A DNA stretch of 64,000 nt from positions 1-64,000 of the IMG/VR virus record IMGVR_UViG_3300047496_000430; one strand, 5' to 3'. Shown here piece by piece: positions 5,588 through 49,915 of the stretch (the stretch's first letter is position 1; every line of letters starts with the position of its first letter). The notes under the pieces were generated by a model. That model was not told the DNA's origin and made no database searches. It saw nothing but the letters and a program-made list of their open reading frames with translations. The stretch comes from a virus. The translations under genes were made by a program, and so were the position numbers.

Positions 5588-6667
5588 CTATCCCCGGAAT
5601 CGGTCCGCGAGTAGCGGGTCTTCACGGAGCGCGGTGAGCTGTAGTGCGACCGCGGTTTCGAGGTCCTGCAGCGTCCCAATGTTGCTGATGACCCCGTCGA
5701 AGAGCTCGTCTGGGATGGTCGTTTGTTCCGTCTCGCTGAGGTGCTGCCCTGCCGCACCGATGAGTCCTGCTCCAGGGCGTACGATGCGGATGACCTTGGC
5801 TCCGCGCTTCTTCAGCCCCTCGACCTCGTTGCGGAAGCGGATGTCGGGGATGACGACGAACTCCGGGATGGCTGCTTCCGGACGCGGCGCGTAGTCGAAC
5901 AGGCCGCGCTTTGCCTCGTAGCGCGGGTGCGCCCGTCCTTCGTACTTCTCTCGCGGCGCATCGTCGGGGTAGTCCGCCGGATAGACATAGTCCAGCATCA
6001 CGGACTTGCCCTCGAGCAGTTGCTCCGCCATTCGCAGCGCGTACTCAACCCATACGTCTTGGTAGCATCTGCGTCCGAACTCTGTGCCGAGCTGCTGGAG
6101 AGCATGTCGCGGCGTGAGGTACGCGAACGGTTCGTCGTTTTCGTGCCCGACGAGCTGCCCGTCCTTCATGACCGACTTCTTGTAGAAGCTGCGTGGGTAG
6201 CGGGTATCCGGCAAGTTGCGCTTGTAGCTAGCGCCCCAGAGCGTCTCTTCATCCCAGCCGAACCAGTCCGCGCACGCGCGCTTCAAAGGGTCCGCCAACG
6301 AGACGACGATGCCATCGTGGTTCTTTACGAAGAAGTCGGCTGCCGCAGACTTCCCCGAACCCGCCGCACCACAGATGCCGATAATCATGACTTCGGTCTC
6401 CCCCTTCTTGAGCGCGATGCCGAACTGCTTCGCTAGATTCCCAACAGTGCGCGCGGATACACCCAACAGGCGGGCTACTGCGTCGGCAGTCTGCCCTTCA
6501 CGCAGACACTGCATCGCGCCCTCGACCTCAGCACCCGAGAGCTTCTTCCCTACTGCGCGCCCTTCCGCAAAGGTCACATAGGCTGGGTTCTTTGCATTCA
6601 GCGGCGTTGTGAGCGCCTGTTCTACTGACCATCCGGGAACACCGCCCATGGAATTACTGGTCTCCAT
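5588..6667 (-). CDS. Deoxynucleoside monophosphate kinase with N-terminal HTH extension (359 aa)
   Basis: The kinase part starts at about residue 94 with MIIGICGAAGSGKS, a P-loop at residues 97-107, followed by segments (VSLADPLKRAC, CYQDVWVEYALRM, VVIPDIRFRNE) expected for phage dNMP kinases of the T4 gene-1 kind, which phosphorylate dGMP, dTMP and hydroxymethyl-dCMP. Residues 45-88 form a helix-turn-helix (TADAVARLLGVSARTVGN). An internal ATG at 6388 has AAGGGGGAG nine bases upstream, so a 266-residue kinase alone, close to the family's usual 240 residues, could be made. It works with the dCMP deaminase upstream in dNTP supply. Confidence 0.85.
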   Translation of the reverse strand: METSNSMGGVPGWSVEQALTTPLNAKNPAYVTFAEGRAVGKKLSGAEVEGAMQCLREGQTADAVARLLGVSARTVGNLAKQFGIALKKGETEVMIIGICGAAGSGKSAAADFFVKNHDGIVVSLADPLKRACADWFGWDEETLWGASYKRNLPDTRYPRSFYKKSVMKDGQLVGHENDEPFAYLTPRHALQQLGTEFGRRCYQDVWVEYALRMAEQLLEGKSVMLDYVYPADYPDDAPREKYEGRAHPRYEAKRGLFDYAPRPEAAIPEFVVIPDIRFRNEVEGLKKRGAKVIRIVRPGAGLIGAAGQHLSETEQTTIPDELFDGVISNIGTLQDLETAVALQLTALREDPLLADRFRG

Positions 6668-7083: not shown

Positions 7084-8403
7084 TCAGGGACCGACCTTCT
7101 TGTGCTTGATGTCCACCGCGTCGAAGAGTTCGAGCGAAGTGCGGATGCGATAGTCATGGAAGTACTGCACCTCCTGGACGCCGCCGAGGTTGATGAGGAG
7201 CTTCGCGCAGTTATGTGCTATGATGCGGGAAGCACCGGCATGATACCAACCACCGCCGGTCTGGAGGTTGTAGACGTGGCCAGACCAACGATAGCGCTCG
7301 ACGTGAACGACCTCATCCAACGCTATCTGGCAGGGGAAGACACCGCTCAGCTCGCGGCGGCGTGCGGCGTTTCCACGGCCACCATCGGAAACCGTCTCCG
7401 CCCACACGGGGTTCTCCGCGAGCGCGGTGAGGGTGGCGCTGCTTACCTGCGCACTCGCCGCATCCCACTCCCGGTACAGGAGGTCATTGCAGCGTATGAA
7501 CGCGGTGAGTCCATCAGTGCTCTGGCCATCCGGTACAACGTAGACCGCACGGCCATCAAGCTCCGCCTGCGCGAAGCTGGTCTCCTTATCAAGGAGAGCG
7601 TGTCGGGTGCTATTGCGCGCGCGTTGCAGAACGAACGCCATCCGACACGGACCGGAACCGGCGAGCGCTGGCTGTGCGATGAGCTGCTCAGGGCCGGGCT
7701 TCCCGTCGTTCTCCAAGGGGCCATCGACCACTACAACGTCGATGTCCGTATCGGGCAGACCGTCGCCGTGGAACTGATGACGTGCGCCGGGACGCCGTAC
7801 CGAGAAGCCCGTGCGCATCAACGACTCAAACACCTTCTCAATCGGCTGACCCTCCTCGTGGTCCGCGCCACCGGCGCCCATCCACTCACCCCCAACGGTG
7901 TGCAGAAGGTGGTCGCCCTCGCACAGCAGCTCTACGGGAGAGAACCCGCGCCCAAGGGTGAGTACTGGGTGGTTCGGGGTGACGGCGAACTCGCCATTGC
8001 GGGTGATGACCCGCACCATCGGGCCCTCGTACCAGCGCCGGTACGCGCGTTGAATAGGCGACGGGCTCGAGACCAGCGTGCCTGACGGAAAGCAGTTCAC
8101 GCAGGGCAAGTGCGTAGCGAAGACAATCTTCTTCGTCTCGCGCGGCACGTCGCAGTTCACGACCGCGTTCGCCTCGGCGTGAATGCAGCCACAAGCTCCC
8201 GGCGTATCGGAGTCACAGCGGTTCGGAAGACCCGACGCGTTGCCGTTGAACCCGACTGCGATGACCTTGCGAAAGTCTGGCGTTGTGATGGCACAGCCAA
8301 CCTGCATGAGCTCGCCCTTGGAGTTGGTACGGCTGCAGGTTGAGCGCTCTGCCATACTGCGGGCGAGGCGCATGTAGATTTCTTCGAACGTCGGCCTGTC
8401 CAT
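7084..8403 (-). CDS. dCMP deaminase interrupted by an intein (439-aa precursor, 144-aa spliced enzyme)
   Basis: The extein has the cytidine/dCMP deaminase zinc site: H75-A-E77 (CIHAEAN) and PC101-V-N-C, deaminating dCMP to dUMP for dTMP synthesis. The chain is broken exactly before the second Cys of the PCxxC motif by a 295-residue insertion (residues 104-398), then resumes CAKLLINLGG. Spliced, it is 144 residues, a usual size for phage dCMP deaminases. The precursor cannot have a proper zinc site, so activity should depend on splicing. The start overlaps the upstream stop as TGATG. It is followed by an unknown gene and the dNMP kinase. Confidence 0.9.
   Translation of the reverse strand: MDRPTFEEIYMRLARSMAERSTCSRTNSKGELMQVGCAITTPDFRKVIAVGFNGNASGLPNRCDSDTPGACGCIHAEANAVVNCDVPRETKKIVFATHLPCVNCFPSGTLVSSPSPIQRAYRRWYEGPMVRVITRNGEFAVTPNHPVLTLGRGFSPVELLCEGDHLLHTVGGEWMGAGGADHEEGQPIEKVFESLMRTGFSVRRPGARHQFHGDGLPDTDIDVVVVDGPLENDGKPGPEQLIAQPALAGSGPCRMAFVLQRARNSTRHALLDKETSFAQAELDGRAVYVVPDGQSTDGLTAFIRCNDLLYREWDAASAQVSSATLTALAENPVWAETVSDGGRGNAARRRELSGVFPCQIALDEVVHVERYRWSGHVYNLQTGGGWYHAGASRIIAHNCAKLLINLGGVQEVQYFHDYRIRTSLELFDAVDIKHKKVGP
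7210..8094 (-). mobile_element. Intein in dCMP deaminase (295 aa, all splicing residues present)
   Basis: Block A begins CFPSGTLVSS (Cys1). Block B has T-P-N-H (precursor residues 142-145) in GEFAVTPNHPVLT. A GFSPVELLCEGDHLL segment matches the usual 'wv.a.eL..GD' region. Block F is GHVYNLQTGGGWYHAG, and block G ends R-I-I-A-H-N followed by Cys+1. Thus Cys1, the TxxH pair, the penultimate His, the terminal Asn and Cys+1 are all there and protein splicing should work. The middle (about residues 175-365) has no recognised LAGLIDADG or HNH domain in this frame; instead the opposite strand carries an endonuclease-like gene. Confidence 0.9.
7240..8085 (+). CDS. Putative homing endonuclease encoded antisense inside the intein (281 aa)
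   Basis: On the strand opposite the intein, ATG 7240 (GGGAAG seven bases upstream) to TGA 8085 encodes two helix-turn-helix units (residues 23-58, GVSTATIGNRL, and 78-114, YNVDRTAIKLRL), then a restriction-endonuclease-like core with E142 (TGTGERWLCDELL), D168 (HYNVDVRIG) and E178 (QTVAVELM), the order seen in Vsr/DUF559-type PD-(D/E)xK nucleases. An in-frame ATG at 7213 is possible, but its ribosome site would lie in the extein. The whole gene fits inside the intein borders 7210-8094. Probable job: cutting intein-less alleles. Function is inferred from domain order. Confidence 0.75.
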   Translation: MIPTTAGLEVVDVARPTIALDVNDLIQRYLAGEDTAQLAAACGVSTATIGNRLRPHGVLRERGEGGAAYLRTRRIPLPVQEVIAAYERGESISALAIRYNVDRTAIKLRLREAGLLIKESVSGAIARALQNERHPTRTGTGERWLCDELLRAGLPVVLQGAIDHYNVDVRIGQTVAVELMTCAGTPYREARAHQRLKHLLNRLTLLVVRATGAHPLTPNGVQKVVALAQQLYGREPAPKGEYWVVRGDGELAIAGDDPHHRALVPAPVRALNRRRARDQRA

Positions 8404-42646: not shown

Positions 42647-43222
42647 TCAGTGAATCTTCCGATAGGCCGCGACCCGGCAACACCAGTCGATGAAGACGTC
42701 TTGCGCCATCGCATGCTTCATGAAGTTCACTGCGGGGTGCACCCACTGGACATTGCCCGGGATGTAACCCTTCTCGCTGTCAATGCGGTCAAGAGAAGCT
42801 ACTGTTTCTCCCTCTGCGAGCGTCTTCTTCGTCATGCCGAGTGGTGCTCCGGTTAGAGCGCATCGGCGTCCTTGTTGTTCAAAAATAGACCACAGTGTCG
42901 CGGCCGTTACTGAGAATACAAATCCTCGGTGACGCGCCTGCGTACGAAGACACCCGTAACGATGCCCACTCAGGTGGCCCGCCGACGCGTACTTCGACCG
43001 GTACGTCCGTGTCTGCATTCGCGCGCAACCGCAAGACTGCGGTCCCTGTTCTACGCGTCTTGGCCTACGCCCTATAGTTGATGCGCGCTTGACTAGCTCC
43101 TTGCCGCACACGCAACGCACACGCCACATAACGTCACCGCGCGCGGCAACTTCACCCGTGGGGGCTAGCACCGTCAACAAGCCGATGACTTTTCCGGCCA
43201 AGTCCTTTCGGATGTTCGGCAT
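42647..43222 (-). CDS. HNH homing endonuclease (191 aa)
   Basis: N-terminal region (DLAGKVIGLLTVLAPTGE, RVRCVCGKELVKRAS, CGCAR) is a Cys-rich DNA-binding part seen in phage HNH enzymes. The catalytic part has CALTGAPLG, SLDRIDSEKGYIPGNVQWV and HPAVNFMKH, the D-R-I-D...GY...N-V-Q-W...N-x2-K layout of HNH homing enzymes. Start ATG 43222 overlaps the RNA polymerase stop as TGATG, so translation is likely coupled. It is a free-standing mobile gene; no intron is seen in the polymerase gene. Confidence 0.85.
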   Translation of the reverse strand: MPNIRKDLAGKVIGLLTVLAPTGEVAARGDVMWRVRCVCGKELVKRASTIGRRPRRVEQGPQSCGCARMQTRTYRSKYASAGHLSGHRYGCLRTQARHRGFVFSVTAATLWSIFEQQGRRCALTGAPLGMTKKTLAEGETVASLDRIDSEKGYIPGNVQWVHPAVNFMKHAMAQDVFIDWCCRVAAYRKIH

Positions 43223-46200
43223 CAATAGAAGTGCTCCGGCACATCCTTGAGGTGCCCGTAACCGGGTTTGCTGGCGTCCCTCTTCGTCAGACCTAGCTCG
43301 CTGCCGAAAGCCATGCCCGGGACAGGGTGCGTCCCGTGGATGTGCGACACGCCGCGCGTTGCCGCCGCCTCCATCAACGTCTCGCGAAGATGCCGGTGCT
43401 GCAACTTCGCCATCCAGTCTTCTTGCATCTCGAGAGGTAGAACTTCAATGCCTTTCAGCGTCGGCTTGTGTTCGATGGGCTTTTTGCTGGCTGCTATGAG
43501 CTCGGCGTTGAGCTTGTAGACCGTCGTCGTCGGGCGATACTCCCCACGAAGAACAGTCGGGTGGTCTCCAGAGTCCGTGACCTCGGTGAGATTCCCCATC
43601 ACGCGCACGATGGTCTCGATGGCGCGGCGCTTGATGCCCTCCTTCGCGTAGAGACCGTGAATCTCGTCGACGAGGTGTCCCTGCACACGCTCCATCGAAT
43701 TCGTCGCCTTGAAGAGCTGGCGCGGGTTCACGACGGTGCGGTTCGGGTCGGAGAGATGCTGACCTGCCTCGACCTGCATGCCGACGACGGGCGGCTGCCA
43801 GGGCATGTAGCCGCTGATGCCCCGCGAGTTGGGCAGCGCCGCGTGCAACGGCATCCCGCGCGCGTCGTTGCTGACGTGGTGACGCTTGCCGCCGACAAAG
43901 ATGTCCACACCTGTCGCGGTCGGTTGAATCTTCTCGACCTTGCCGCTGACCATCGACAGCGTCGCCTCGTTCGGTACGTGCTCCGGCAGCATCAGCAAGT
44001 TCGAGAAGTGCTTGAAGGCGTTGACGACCTTCGAGCCGCTCGCCTCACGCACGCCACCCGTGTGGAAGGCCTTCAAGGTCAGCTGCACTGCGCGCTCACC
44101 AACCGTGTGCGCCGAGAGAACGCCGATGTTGGTCCCGAGCGGATGCAGGTCTCCCGAAGAAGAAACTCCACTGCACTTCTGGCAGATGCCCTGCTCCTCC
44201 TCACACTTCAGCGGCGAACGAACGACGAGCCTGGCGTCCTTCTTGACCGACCGAATCTTACCCACGATGTCCGGTGTGAGCAGCGTGCCCGCCGGTACGT
44301 GCAGACCATCCTGGTCGAAGTCCTTCTGCAGGTAGCGGTCGTGAATGTCCCGCTCCTGCACCGACAGAGCAACGCCCTTATTGGTGCCACAATCGTGCTT
44401 AGTGATGAGCACGTTCATCATGTTCTGCATCAACAGCTTCGACATAACGCCGGGTTTCTCGACACCCTGGACCTTGAGGACTGCGCCCCGCCGCGCACCG
44501 TGCATCTGCGTCCAATAGCTGCCGAGGTCCAGACCCTCAGAGTAGCTCTTGGTGACCGGTGTCGGGATGTCCTGGTCAGCGGAGTCCTGGTAAATCATCG
44601 GGGCCAAGACCATCTGCTTGTACTGCTCCCAGCCCGGCTTCACGCCCGCGCTGTACATCGTGAAGAGATTCGAAGGGTCCTTCTTCATCTTCTCTTCGTG
44701 CAGCGTCTTCATCGTGTTGCCGGCTGTCTTGTAGACGTTGATGGCCTGGCGGTCCTTGTCAGCCTGCGGAATCTTTGTGCTCGCGTAGATGCTCGCGGCT
44801 TCGGCGTGCGCCGCCTTCAAGACCTTGTCGCGCGTCTCATAGTCTGGGGTGAAATCCTTGAGCGACAGCGTGTGCACCCCCGTGGGGACGAAGATGTTCT
44901 TGCTCGGGTCGTGCACGGCAACGTGCGTGTTTTCGAACTTCTGGAACGCGAAGGCATGGCCAGCGGCTGTGGGCAGCGGCAGGCGTACCGAGCCAGAGGC
45001 CGCGCCGTTGCCGATGTCCTTTAGCTTGTTCACGACGTCGCCGTAGAGCTCGTGATGGTTCTTCGCGAGCGTCGTCAGCATCGCGTCAAGCCCCTTGCCG
45101 TCGACCTTCGTGTTGAAGTCATGGAGATAGGTGTCCTGCATCTCCTTCGGCAGCGCAGCCGCGAGCATCACGCGCCCCGGCGTGGTTTTCTTCCCATCCA
45201 GCTCGACGACATCAGTCGACAGCAGATGACCCTTCTGGACGGCCTCGACAACCTGCGCCGGGTTCTTGAAGGTCTTCCCCGTCTCCTTGCCGACGAGCCC
45301 GAGCTTGTAGAGGCCGAGTGCCGACTCGAGCGTCGGCTGGTACATCACGCGCCCCGTCGCCTCGCTGAAGAGGTTGTTCGATGGGAACATCTTGTGGGCC
45401 TCCGCAACGGCCTCACGCGTGATGGGGACATAGGCGCTCATCGAGTCACCGTCGAAGTCGGCGGTGAATCCCCCAGTCACGAGCGGGTGAATCTGCACCG
45501 CGCTACCTTCGACACGACGCGCACGGAAGCCTTGCACCGAGTACTTGTGAAGCGCAGGGTCGCGCTTGAGTAGCACGGGGCGCTCCTCCATCACCCGGTC
45601 GAGCGCACGCCAGACCGAGGGCGTCGGCTTGGCAAGCAGCGCTGGTGCCTGCAGCTCCGTCTGGATGGCGCCCATCTCGCGCAGCTTCCGAATGACAAAG
45701 GGTCGATAGAGGCTGAGCGCTGCGTGACTCGGGAGTCCGACTTCATCGAGACCGAGCGCGGGCTCCGGCACGATGGTCGAGCGCATCGTCAAGTCCTGTC
45801 GCCGGTTGATGAGCACGCGCTGGAAGTAGCCACGCTTCGGCTGGCTTCCGCTGATTTGGTGCAGGATGCCCTTGAGTTTCTGCCCCTCGTACGGGATGCC
45901 GACGCCCATCAGCGCCTTCACGCCGTCGTAGAGACTCTCGCGAAGCTCTTGCTTGTGCGCGTCGTCAAGGTTCTGCGCGATGACCGGGTCCTTCAGCTTA
46001 TCGTTCACCTTCGCGAAGTCCGAGTAGAGCTTCGTGAGTCCCTCGAACTGAAGGTTGCCGTCGGGCAGCCGCGAGACCGCACGCAGCACGGGCGGCATCA
46101 CCGGCAGATTGTGCAGCACGTATGCGTCCGCCGGCTTGAGGTTCGCAGTGTCGAGCGCACGCAAGTACTTCACACGCTTCAAGACACTGTCGACCTTGTG

Positions 46201-49200
46201 CTCACCACGCACCGTTCGCAGTTCTTCTTCGGCCTTCCGCAGGTCCTTCTTCACGTCGATGCGCTCAAGAAGCAGCTTGATGCCAGCACCGCCGGTGATG
46301 CCTGCATGCGTGTCCGTGAGATGCCCGTTGGGCGTGATGCCGCGTGTTCCTGCGATGACGGCGTCGTAGTCCTTCTGCGAGAGCCCGGTGAGGTGTCGAA
46401 TCGGGGCTTCGAAGACAGGGTTGGGGAGCGGCTCGGCCAGCGAGATGCGCGTCCACTGTCGACCCCCGTGACCGCCCGTGAGCTTCTCGTCGAAGAGGCC
46501 ACCCGTGATGGGCTTCGGGTCGCCGTTCCCGTCGACCTTGTTGCGATGCACCAGCTCTGCAGGCTTCGGCAGCTCCTTCGGCGCGAGCGTTCGAATCTGG
46601 TCATCCGTCAACGGCGTGAGGATGAAGTCATGTCCCTTCTTCTCGAGGTTCACACCTGCACCACGCAGGAGGTCTTCGAATTTCTGGAACGCGAAGGTCG
46701 GCTTCGGCGTAGGCAGCGCGCCACCAGTCGCAATGGCTGCCCAAATGCGTCGATGGTCACTGGGCCACTGCTTCGAGGGGCTCGTGTTCGGGTCCGGCCC
46801 TTCAGACTTGTACGACTGCATCTCACGGATGTTCGCCTTCGCGCCGTGCGCGAGGAGCGCGTAGAGCCCGAGGGTTCCCATCGCCTGACCGCCGGTGTGC
46901 CCACCGCTCGCCGGTTGCAGGTTCGAGTCGTAGGTCTCGTGCTCTCCTGACCCAGGAAGCGGGTCCATGCCGCTGCGCACTGAGAGCTTCTTGTCGACCT
47001 GGTGCACGAGCTTGAGCATGTGCATCGGACCCACAAGCGCGTGTCCGAGACTTTGCTTGGTGACCGGGTCGATGAGCTCCTCGGTGTCGGAGAGCCCGTG
47101 CGTCTTCAAGTCACTCTTCACCCGCGCGAGGAAGTCGACGCCCGGCTCAAAGTTCTCGACGAGGTAGGTCTTGCCCGTCTTCTTGGCGACCTTGCCGGCG
47201 GCCGTCTCGAGCACCTGGCTCACGTTCATGCGCCCAGGAACGCCGCTGGGGTTCAGGGCCACTTCGATGTGCTCGCCGTTGGGCGTGTGCGGCATCTCTG
47301 CGTCAGGGAGGATGCGCGTGACGATGCCCTTGTTGCCGGCGCGTCCGGTGAGCTTGTCGCCGACCTGCATCGGCTCCGTGGTCTTCACGTGCACTGAAAC
47401 ACCGTCCGGCCCACGGTGCACACTCACTACCTCGCCCGAGGCGTCCGCGTCCCAGCGCAAACTCTTGTCGGTGTGCGCACCGCTCATGCTGCGCCGAATC
47501 GCGCTGAGGCCAGTACGGTCCTTCAGACGGAACGGCTTCATGGCCGCAACAAGCGGGTCGCCGGGACTGACTCGGCTACCGACGCGCACGATGCCGTCGT
47601 CGTCGAGCTTTGCGAGCTGGTCCTTCTTGAAGACGTTGTGATGCTCGCGCATGAACGCGGCTTTGTTGAGCTTCGTCTCCCCGTCGACCGCGAGCGTGTG
47701 CTTGTGGAGGTGCTCGCTCGAGAGCTTATCCGCCGCAGACTGGCTGATGACGATGCCGTCCTCGAAGTTGTAGCCACGAAAGGGGATGAACGCGACGCGG
47801 AGGTTCGTACCGAGAGCGAGTGTGCCGTTCTTCGAGAAGTTCGTGTCCGCGACCGACTTGCCCTCCTTCACTTCGTCCCCGACCTTCACCGTCGGCGTCG
47901 AGTGCAGCATCCCCTTGGCATCGTTCAACGGGTAGTGCTGGTAGAGCTGGACCTCGTGCTTCTGTCCGCTCTTGTCCGTGATGACGATGGCGTCCTTCTT
48001 CACCGACGTCACGTGCCCATCGACCGGCGCGACGTGCGACGCGAAGTCCCCGACGACCTGCTCGAAGGTGACCGGCCCCGGGACACCCGTAGAGACCTGC
48101 ACCAGCGGCGGCTCACGATGCACCAACGAGATGGCCTGCTCCATCTGCCGGCTGGCCATCGAGGCACGACCGCCGCTGGTGTTCCCCATGAAGGGGATGA
48201 GGTTGGCCGTGATGTTGAAGAGCTGCGCCGGCAATCGCATCACGTAGTGCGCATCTTCGAACTTGCCGTTCTCGATGGCGTTGTTCTTCACGCTCATCTT
48301 CACGGTGTCGGAGATGGGCTTGGGCCGCCCGTTCTCCCAGCGCACCTGGTCGGGGAGCACGACGTTCGCATCTAGGAACGTGGCTGCGTTCACGTGCTCC
48401 ATCTCGTGAGTGCGCGTGTTGTAGAGCTGGATGCGCGCCTCGTTGCCGACCTTCTTCAGACCGACGGGCAGGCGGAGCGTGACGCCTGTCTTCGCACCCT
48501 CGGGGGTGTTGATGGGGTCGAGGAAGCCGAGATGGCTCGGGTTCACGAACTTCGCCTCGTCGACGATGCCGCGCTCGCTACGGATGCCGCCCGGTCCCAT
48601 GATGGTCGTCTGCATTGCAGAGCCGAGCATCTCGAGAGGGTTGATTTGCGACGGCGTGGACGAGGCTTCGTTCTCCTTGAAGGTGTCGCGGACCGGGCGG
48701 TCGAAGAGGTCCATCTTGATGATGTCGCGCACCTCCTTCGCCGTGTTGATTTTCCTCTCAATGCGCTTGCGAATCCCAGGACCTGCACCGCGCAACTTGT
48801 CGTAGGCGAAGTCTCCGGCCGAGCGCAGGTCCTTGAAGACGAGGCTGTCACGGTCATCTTCTGGATGGCCGGCCTGGACCTTGAGCATCTTCTCCGTCGC
48901 GAGCCGAATGGCTTCCGACGTCACATGCGTGAGCGGCTTTCCGAGTGTAACGCTGGTGGAGTCAGGTCGGAGCTTTGAGCGCTCCATTGCCTGGTAGAAG
49001 TGAGCCGCTGCCTCCTCGTGCGACGACGGCGCCGTTCCTTTGCTAGTACGGTAGAACGCCTCGAGCGCGGCGCCGACATTGCGCGCGTTCTTGTTGGCAG
49101 TGAGGATTTCTTTCCCCCACGCCTTCTCGAGCTCTTCGTCCGTCGCGCCGAGCGTCTTCAGCAACGGGTACAACGGCGGGTGCGCCTTGTTGTAGTCCAT

Positions 49201-49668
49201 CGTGAAAATCTTCGTGTCCGGGTCGAAGGCGAGGTCGAACCGGCGCCCGTCCTTCACGTTGAACTGACTCTCGAGCTCACCGTTCTGCCTGCGGCGCGCG
49301 TACACGCCAGGCTTGAGCTGCCACTGGTTCGAGACCTGGTACTCCCGCCCATCGACCAAGTAGCTGTGGCGACGCGTGGTCTTCGGAATCTCCGCTACCC
49401 GGATGCGCTGACGGTCGATGAGTTGCCCGGCCTTGTCCTTCAGCGCGAATGTTGCGAAGACAGGTACGGCCCAACTCTCGCCGTTCACCTTCGCGGCGTG
49501 CTGCCCACGAATGTCATCTGGGTGCAGGTCATCCTGCACCTCGAGGTTCTCGAGGTGGAGCGATTGCAGCTTCCCTTGAATGCTCCCATTCGGGAAGTGA
49601 CTGCGAATGCCCTCGAGCACGTGGCTCTTGAGGTCGTCGAATGCGTCCGTCGGGGCGAGGTAGGCCAA
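43222..49668 (-). CDS. Single-chain fused beta-beta' RNA polymerase (about 2,148 aa)
   Basis: Beta part: HLGFLDPINTPEGAKTGV, GYNFEDGIVIS, GNKGIVTRILPDAEMPH (near 47330) and GGQAMGTLGLYALLAHGA, each matching bacterial RpoB motifs. Beta' part starts near 46600 (DDQIRTLAPKEL): ALHKYSVQGFRARRVEGSAV, then T-A-D-F-D-G-D at 45465-45445 with the three magnesium Asp, and the second zinc site with HDCGT (about 44390) and CEEEQGICQKC (about 44190). The N-terminal beta' zinc site is missing. TTG 49668 has GGAG six bases upstream; ATG 49722 and a frame opening at 49803 are alternatives lacking a ribosome site. It would transcribe phage genes. Confidence 0.9.
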   Translation of the reverse strand: MAYLAPTDAFDDLKSHVLEGIRSHFPNGSIQGKLQSLHLENLEVQDDLHPDDIRGQHAAKVNGESWAVPVFATFALKDKAGQLIDRQRIRVAEIPKTTRRHSYLVDGREYQVSNQWQLKPGVYARRRQNGELESQFNVKDGRRFDLAFDPDTKIFTMDYNKAHPPLYPLLKTLGATDEELEKAWGKEILTANKNARNVGAALEAFYRTSKGTAPSSHEEAAAHFYQAMERSKLRPDSTSVTLGKPLTHVTSEAIRLATEKMLKVQAGHPEDDRDSLVFKDLRSAGDFAYDKLRGAGPGIRKRIERKINTAKEVRDIIKMDLFDRPVRDTFKENEASSTPSQINPLEMLGSAMQTTIMGPGGIRSERGIVDEAKFVNPSHLGFLDPINTPEGAKTGVTLRLPVGLKKVGNEARIQLYNTRTHEMEHVNAATFLDANVVLPDQVRWENGRPKPISDTVKMSVKNNAIENGKFEDAHYVMRLPAQLFNITANLIPFMGNTSGGRASMASRQMEQAISLVHREPPLVQVSTGVPGPVTFEQVVGDFASHVAPVDGHVTSVKKDAIVITDKSGQKHEVQLYQHYPLNDAKGMLHSTPTVKVGDEVKEGKSVADTNFSKNGTLALGTNLRVAFIPFRGYNFEDGIVISQSAADKLSSEHLHKHTLAVDGETKLNKAAFMREHHNVFKKDQLAKLDDDGIVRVGSRVSPGDPLVAAMKPFRLKDRTGLSAIRRSMSGAHTDKSLRWDADASGEVVSVHRGPDGVSVHVKTTEPMQVGDKLTGRAGNKGIVTRILPDAEMPHTPNGEHIEVALNPSGVPGRMNVSQVLETAAGKVAKKTGKTYLVENFEPGVDFLARVKSDLKTHGLSDTEELIDPVTKQSLGHALVGPMHMLKLVHQVDKKLSVRSGMDPLPGSGEHETYDSNLQPASGGHTGGQAMGTLGLYALLAHGAKANIREMQSYKSEGPDPNTSPSKQWPSDHRRIWAAIATGGALPTPKPTFAFQKFEDLLRGAGVNLEKKGHDFILTPLTDDQIRTLAPKELPKPAELVHRNKVDGNGDPKPITGGLFDEKLTGGHGGRQWTRISLAEPLPNPVFEAPIRHLTGLSQKDYDAVIAGTRGITPNGHLTDTHAGITGGAGIKLLLERIDVKKDLRKAEEELRTVRGEHKVDSVLKRVKYLRALDTANLKPADAYVLHNLPVMPPVLRAVSRLPDGNLQFEGLTKLYSDFAKVNDKLKDPVIAQNLDDAHKQELRESLYDGVKALMGVGIPYEGQKLKGILHQISGSQPKRGYFQRVLINRRQDLTMRSTIVPEPALGLDEVGLPSHAALSLYRPFVIRKLREMGAIQTELQAPALLAKPTPSVWRALDRVMEERPVLLKRDPALHKYSVQGFRARRVEGSAVQIHPLVTGGFTADFDGDSMSAYVPITREAVAEAHKMFPSNNLFSEATGRVMYQPTLESALGLYKLGLVGKETGKTFKNPAQVVEAVQKGHLLSTDVVELDGKKTTPGRVMLAAALPKEMQDTYLHDFNTKVDGKGLDAMLTTLAKNHHELYGDVVNKLKDIGNGAASGSVRLPLPTAAGHAFAFQKFENTHVAVHDPSKNIFVPTGVHTLSLKDFTPDYETRDKVLKAAHAEAASIYASTKIPQADKDRQAINVYKTAGNTMKTLHEEKMKKDPSNLFTMYSAGVKPGWEQYKQMVLAPMIYQDSADQDIPTPVTKSYSEGLDLGSYWTQMHGARRGAVLKVQGVEKPGVMSKLLMQNMMNVLITKHDCGTNKGVALSVQERDIHDRYLQKDFDQDGLHVPAGTLLTPDIVGKIRSVKKDARLVVRSPLKCEEEQGICQKCSGVSSSGDLHPLGTNIGVLSAHTVGERAVQLTLKAFHTGGVREASGSKVVNAFKHFSNLLMLPEHVPNEATLSMVSGKVEKIQPTATGVDIFVGGKRHHVSNDARGMPLHAALPNSRGISGYMPWQPPVVGMQVEAGQHLSDPNRTVVNPRQLFKATNSMERVQGHLVDEIHGLYAKEGIKRRAIETIVRVMGNLTEVTDSGDHPTVLRGEYRPTTTVYKLNAELIAASKKPIEHKPTLKGIEVLPLEMQEDWMAKLQHRHLRETLMEAAATRGVSHIHGTHPVPGMAFGSELGLTKRDASKPGYGHLKDVPEHFY

Positions 49669-49786
49669 TGGTTTCTCCGCGGAACTTCTGGGCCGCAGGG
49701 TAGCTCGCACGCGAGAACACATGCAAGGCAGAACCAAGCGGTGGAATAAGAGCACTGGAGGATGACACGGCACGGAAGGAGCGAAA

Positions 49787-49915
49787 ATGGGGCCCGAAAG
49801 CAAGGACGCTGGCGCGCTGTTTCAGCGACGCATCGAGCAGATGTTCGAACTCGAGGAGCAACAAGATGACGAAGATGAACCAGAAGAAGACCTCGATGAA
49901 GGGAATACAACGTGA
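49787..49915 (+). CDS. Acidic microprotein (42 aa)
   Basis: AAGGAG lies five bases before ATG 49787. The product starts MGPESKDAGALFQRRIEQMF and ends in a strongly acidic stretch (QQDDEDEPEEDLDEG). It opens the plus-strand operon divergent to the RNA polymerase gene; the 118-base gap between them (49669-49786) must hold both promoters, but I see no convincing -35/-10 pair, only a CTCGCAC-GCGAG palindrome at 49704-49715. An acidic peptide beside a polymerase gene could bind the enzyme; speculative. Confidence 0.6.
   Translation: MGPESKDAGALFQRRIEQMFELEEQQDDEDEPEEDLDEGNTT

Follow-up and report, generated by a model that had tools for sequence, protein, structure and literature searches.

An intein in a viral dCMP deaminase gene encloses a homing-endonuclease-like gene on its opposite strand

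The deaminase intein and the gene opposite to it

The stretch of DNA analysed here (hereafter the window) comprises 64,000 nucleotides, positions 1 to 64,000 of the IMG/VR virus record IMGVR_UViG_3300047496_000430, and is part of a 177-kb virus record. Its minus strand carries a dCMP deaminase gene that is interrupted by an intein, and the plus strand of this intein carries a homing-endonuclease-like gene. The features of the locus, in window positions, are:

7084 to 8403, minus strand: dCMP deaminase precursor gene with intein, 439 aa, a single open frame
7210 to 8094, minus strand: intein, 295 aa, Cys1 to Asn295 (precursor residues 104-398)
7894 to 8094, minus strand: N-terminal splicing part, intein residues 1-67, confident model region; both frames constrained
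7330 to 7893, minus strand: middle of the intein frame, model of low confidence at residues 126-254; substitutions track the plus-strand frame
7210 to 7329, minus strand: C-terminal splicing part, intein residues 256-295, confident model region; blocks F and G
7263 to 7268, plus strand: Shine-Dalgarno-like GGAGGT, 7 nt before GTG 7276
7276 to 8085, plus strand: homing-endonuclease-like gene, likely start GTG 7276, TGA 8083-8085, 269 aa, wholly inside the intein
7300 to 7407, plus strand: helix-turn-helix (HTH) 1, nuclease residues 9-44 (HTH_23, E 6e-4; helices 10-18, 23-30, 34-44)
7471 to 7575, plus strand: HTH 2, nuclease residues 66-100 (HTH_7, E 2e-4; helices 67-75, 80-86, 91-100)
7657 to 7941, plus strand: Vsr/EDxHD-like nuclease domain, residues 128-222 (family profile, Foldseek)
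7759 to 7773, both strands: VAVE strand of the nuclease (plus) facing the FHGDG motif of the intein strand, by coordinates

Profile searches identified the 7084-8403 reading frame as a dCMP deaminase (phrog_174, E 6e-24; PF00383, E 4e-9). Computed removal of the intein yields a spliced deaminase of 144 aa with its HAE and PCVNCAK motifs restored, which matches 1193 phage records. The intein is inserted inside the PCxxC zinc motif, the second Cys of which is the +1 Cys. The class 1 intein motifs are present (C1, TxxH as TPNH, block F and a C-terminal AHN followed by Cys), and an alignment of 15 family members keeps block A (C1), block B (TPNHPVLT), block F (GHVYNL) and block G (IIAHN, then the +1 Cys). 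The structure model, confident in the two splicing parts, points to a Hint fold: nearly all of its PDB matches in Foldseek are inteins, several of them at probability 0.9-0.99 with modest E-values. When the precursor was compared with intein profiles, a check that the first-pass annotation had proposed, matches were obtained, with scores under the curated cut-offs (PF14890, 17.3 vs 35.8 bits; TIGR01445, 18.6 vs 24.5), which are search thresholds and not biological features. Because of these scores, the intein assignment rests on motifs, fold and relatives. For the middle of the intein frame, neither a nuclease family match (Pfam, NCBIfam, PHROGs) nor a confident fold in the structure model was found. 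A match of the precursor to phrog_15127, labelled 'head protein', covers intein residues, because other members are head proteins with an intein. A split intein or fractured gene is ruled out by the single open frame.

On the plus strand, a frame is open across the intein in codon-register antisense phase, in which the codons of nuclease and intein pair one to one as reverse complements. In this register the C-terminal tail of the nuclease faces intein residues 1-67, and nuclease E166 faces intein F108. Searched alone against Pfam, NCBIfam and PHROGs, the window nuclease gave only DNA-binding, HTH or weak matches and no nuclease domain. Among 15 family members, Pfam detects REase_MTES_1575 in nine and HTH_7 in 12, and the family profile matches the catalytic domain of I-Bth0305I (3r3p, E 6e-6) as well as 3hrl (E 2e-4). 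An AlphaFold2 model of moderate confidence (pLDDT 68) consists of two three-helix units followed by an alpha/beta domain, and its top PDB matches in Foldseek are two 3r3p chains (probability 0.98 and 0.97; TM-score 0.60 on the target, E about 0.03). N154, D156, E166 and R183 are invariant in the 15-row nuclease alignment, which is too diverse for pattern scans; in the comparison with EDxHD enzymes, E130 is nearly invariant and D156 and E166 are invariant, with no position assigned to the H and D of this pattern. Elsewhere in the window, a dNMP kinase gene (5588-6667, minus strand; phrog_139, E 1e-39) has an extra N-terminal HTH segment that weakly resembles HTH 1 of the nuclease.

Much of what the first-pass annotation had read from the letters agrees with these data. 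Its minus-strand intein at 7210-8094 is borne out by the splicing blocks, the model fold and the interrupted zinc motif, and the plus frame indeed stays open within the intein borders to the TGA ending at 8085. The homology predicted for this frame, two HTH units and a Vsr-like core, was recovered by the family profile, Pfam and the Foldseek match to 3r3p, and the intein-frame middle is, as stated there, devoid of any detected nuclease. The proposed start, ATG 7240 or 7213, is probably wrong in view of the comparison of 27 sampled copies: in 25 of them the nuclease begins opposite the His codon of block F (ATG from CAT, GTG from CAC), and in L014 and L046 one codon off. In the window, this position is the GTG at 7276; read on the other strand, the preceding GGAGGT falls on the block F codons AAC CTC and on part of the codon after them. 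In the corresponding intein of Virus Rctr197k, the stretch from the intein end to its own GTG contains a stop and lacks an ATG. Codon choice in block F matches this arrangement: the His codon is CAT in 23 of 27 copies (12.1 expected from the rest of the host ORF, p 6e-6) and the nearby Leu codon CTC in 21 of 27 (6.8 expected, p 5e-9), p-values that are optimistic, as in the other codon test below, in that related loci are counted as independent. The two choices combined produce GAGG or GGAGG some 7 nt upstream of the start in many copies; the Shine-Dalgarno motifs are weaker in some copies and absent from one (L002), and the Helicobacter copy has AAGGAG. We consider GTG 7276 the likely start of the window nuclease. 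The Shine-Dalgarno and start-codon evidence supports a separate translation of the nuclease, from which we infer that its production would be uncoupled from that of the host protein.

A promoter scan found no sigma-70-like promoter around the nuclease gene, which says little because the phage appears to code for its own RNA polymerase. A 2193-aa reading frame (43222-49803, minus strand) matches Rpb2 (beta, E 1e-62) and then Rpb1 (beta-prime, E 1e-24), in this order, and is apparently a fused beta/beta-prime RNA polymerase.

Distribution of the family and its mobility

A tblastn search with the plus-strand product of the window matched 28 phage records, the best being Virus Rctr197k with 60% identity, and a Gordonia phage member used as query matched 129 phage records. 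Contig scans of IMG/VR and GTDB gave no close relatives of the window nuclease. We read 61 loci, counting that of the window. In 60 of them the match lies within an intein, and both frames are open throughout the match and in the same codon register; several loci are near-duplicates, and 49 of the set reduce to 30 at 90% identity. Eight distant relatives (L055-L062), which were fetched after the arrangement had been defined, all agree with it. The host genes are mostly MuF or head-morphogenesis genes, and the inteins mainly occupy the NC motif of MuF head proteins. They occur in phages and prophages of Gordonia, Mycobacterium, Pseudomonas, Salmonella, Escherichia, Klebsiella, Vibrio, Edwardsiella, Aggregatibacter, Cronobacter, Pantoea and Helicobacter, and also on a Chloroflexota and a Streptomyces plasmid. 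The deaminase copies of the window and Rctr197k probably represent an offshoot of this MuF-centred family into a second host gene. A 4-kb stretch of Rctr197k has the deaminase-intein gene in common with the window and none of four neighbouring window genes.

Several single records deserve mention. The Rctr197k gene (KX853510.1, Rctr197k_003, 616-1968) is labelled a putative head morphogenesis protein and its exteins are a dCMP deaminase; the label probably stems from the intein that it shares with head proteins. At L002 (2764-4353), the frame of the head gene contains a further intein N-terminal match after the first, and this gene possibly holds two inteins of the family. Salmonella phage PK2 (1902-2711) is the only record, among those read in detail, in which the antisense reading frame is annotated, namely as a hypothetical protein. 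In the nuclease frame of the Streptomyces platensis plasmid (L047, 2183-3073), a single HTH is preceded by a Cys-rich stretch that may be zinc-finger-like; block F of this copy has Trp in place of His, so that its nuclease start must lie elsewhere.

The sole non-embedded locus of the 61 is a free-standing nuclease homologue in Acinetobacter phage IME285 (455-1345), which abuts a MuF gene (PF04233, E 6e-12) tail to tail and groups with the embedded copies in the tree with moderate support. This arrangement suggests that the nuclease may have been acquired by a mini-intein at the MuF site when it was a reversed neighbour of MuF. The opposite path, an escape from an intein, is just as conceivable; the tree does not decide between the two.

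We looked for signs of mobility among intein-less alleles, of which the first-pass annotation had named those of the deaminase as informative. A search with the spliced MuF gene of Salmonella phage BPS11Q3 gave 373 matching records; among the 60 of these that were listed, most are single uninterrupted pieces and at least nine have an insertion of about 0.8 kb, and the intein-less alleles listed are up to 95% identical in Salmonella phages, for instance in PBSE191. Such intein-plus and intein-minus polymorphism at one site is the pattern expected from homing, intein loss being another route to it. Among phage relatives of the deaminase that lack the intein, the nearest has an identity of only about 37%. 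Because no close intein-less deaminase allele was found, mobility is suggested for the MuF relatives and not for the window copy.

Taken together, we think it very probable that this is a mobile intein whose splicing and homing functions are coded on opposite strands of one DNA segment. On the minus strand, the deaminase mRNA would be translated through the intein, and the Hint splicing domain, formed by residues 1-67 and 256-295, would excise the intein and rejoin PCVN and CAK of the zinc motif, as the conserved catalytic residues and the fold suggest. The roughly 190 residues between the splicing parts would mainly reflect the opposite gene being read through, and the intein would tolerate them as a loop. 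On the plus strand, a presumed separate transcript would be translated from the Shine-Dalgarno motif and start codon that lie antisense to block F. While the anatomy of this gene is shown by its sequence, its product would be a homing endonuclease of the Vsr/EDxHD type with two HTH units, ending just before the intein border. It should cut intein-less target copies at the insertion site, and recombinational repair should then copy the intein in, a step to which the family resemblance and the mixed alleles of Salmonella phages point.

We considered two readings that accept the opposite-strand gene and differ in what it does. According to the first, the family homes and the window copy is past its active phase, the deaminase intein being fixed and the nuclease decaying or unexpressed. 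The distance of the nearest intein-less deaminase allele, the GTG start and the failure to find close nuclease relatives in two large collections would all fit such a state. Against it, the frame and Shine-Dalgarno motif are intact, D156, E166 and R183 are kept, and the comparison with Rctr197k bears the mark of purifying selection, with 51, 42 and 103 variable mid-intein sites at nuclease codon positions 1, 2 and 3, so that we regard a decayed window copy as rather unlikely. According to the second, the gene is a true one with a role other than homing, either cutting the DNA of co-infecting phages or regulating the host gene via antisense RNA. Phage homing endonucleases can exclude competitors (PMC7468147), and antisense overlap with the host gene is inherent to the arrangement. 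However, the gene is wholly bound to the intein and the intein is polymorphic at one site, both as homing predicts, and a purely non-homing role therefore appears improbable. An opposite-strand homing endonuclease remains our preferred interpretation.

Selection on the two frames

In the window alone, the open plus frame is weak evidence because GC content is 65% and long antisense reading frames are common; only about 1.5 antisense stops are expected in this copy, which is not significant by itself. These figures would suit a reading in which the plus frame is a codon-bias shadow of GC-rich coding DNA and its similarity among relatives mirrors the conserved intein. The family contradicts this reading on several counts. 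Codons that create antisense stops (TTA, CTA, TCA) number zero in 22 inteins vs 68 expected from neighbouring ORFs, and the frame is open in relatives of 34-48% GC, in which 4 to 10 stops are expected. In the free-standing IME285 homologue, antisense stops are at chance level (7 vs 7.3 expected). Nuclease codon position 3 varies more than position 1 in ten of ten mid-intein comparisons, and the sums over seven groups are 287 variable sites at position 1 and 519 at position 3 (p 3e-16, again optimistic given related loci). In mid-intein, the window and Rctr197k products have 61% of their amino acids in common when read in the nuclease frame vs 37% in the intein frame, and it is the antisense frame that carries the nuclease and HTH homology. 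A mere shadow is accordingly very improbable: homology, selection and the family-wide absence of antisense stops place the plus frame above chance.

Mid-intein selection thus acts on the nuclease frame, judged from these substitution patterns, and the middle of the intein frame is largely a by-product of the opposite gene. Opposite blocks A and B, variation is about the same at positions 1 and 3 and low at position 2, which is what constraint on both frames would produce. The idea that the intein-frame middle is itself a functional domain, with the nuclease reading secondary, can draw on the conserved FHGDG motif and is scarcely credible, since FHGDG faces the VAVE strand of the nuclease, the model confidence is low, nuclease-family matches are lacking and substitutions track the nuclease frame. 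The first-pass annotation would have been refuted by a lack of homology or codon-level selection on the plus frame, or by broken antisense frames in intein-plus relatives; homology and selection are present, and among the 60 embedded loci read none has a broken frame. Intein-less relatives were found for MuF, at up to 95% identity, and none at close range for the deaminase.

Relation to known mobile elements and consequences

By the usual description, an intein is a single protein whose splicing and nuclease domains share one frame. With canonical mobile inteins of the LAGLIDADG or HNH kind, such as PI-SceI, the present family shares blocks A, B, F and G, a nuclease core located between blocks B and F, and insertion in a conserved catalytic motif. 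Whereas their nuclease is in frame, here it lies on the opposite strand in codon register, has its own Shine-Dalgarno motif and start, and is of the Vsr/EDxHD type. I-Bth0305I and the EDxHD homing endonucleases have the same catalytic domain by profile and fold, and the same build of separate DNA-binding modules plus a nuclease domain; I-Bth0305I is encoded by an intron (the name given to 3r3p is that of a mobile intron protein), whereas the gene described here lies inside an intein on the antisense strand. Fractured genes with split inteins and a new endonuclease family, in which inteins are associated with a Vsr-like nuclease, were reportedly described by Dassa and colleagues in 2009. There, host gene and intein are split, whereas here the intein frame is unbroken and overlapped by the nuclease.

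Nucleases hidden in another frame are known from the ShiLan-type, out-of-frame HNH insertions in phage methylases (PMC11855218). These likewise have a nuclease in another frame of an insertion that is open in the host frame, and a disjunct distribution; they differ in that the nuclease is an HNH enzyme on the same strand and no splicing domain is detected, whereas here the strand is opposite and a splicing domain present. Antisense homing-endonuclease genes occur in nuclear rDNA group I introns (PMC9548176), where the nuclease gene also runs opposite to the strand of the splicing element. That system is eukaryotic and relies on RNA splicing, and its nuclease gene sits in a peripheral loop with no protein-coding overlap. 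Inteins in minor head or capsid genes have been reported for Salmonella, Escherichia and cryoconite phages, and the accessible parts of these papers make no mention of an opposite-strand gene (PMC8425127, PMC11162368, PMC7468147). Overlapping frames are frequent in these phages according to PMC11855218, which cites a preprint on "non-canonical" actinophage inteins. In the open papers searched, we found no description of an antisense nuclease inside an intein; the preprint 10.1101/2025.01.02.630785 may contain one. It is about equally probable that the opposite-strand type has and has not been described before. The broader proposition, a widespread and previously undescribed class of mobile inteins that combines an opposite strand in exact codon register, a nuclease ribosome-binding site and start antisense to block F, and functions linked over the overlap, strikes us as evenly balanced.

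If the arrangement works as proposed, nuclease expression would be uncoupled from the host gene. Splicing and homing would furthermore be tied to each other over the overlapped blocks, which bears on the decay of homing nucleases after fixation. Intein annotation that is blind to the other strand misses such nucleases, and what it shows is an intein with a large insert devoid of features. In Salmonella phages, one gene exists both with and without the intein, which makes homing directly testable in them, and a stop introduced into the antisense frame by a synonymous change of a Leu or Ser codon in the intein would provide a clean nuclease knock-out.
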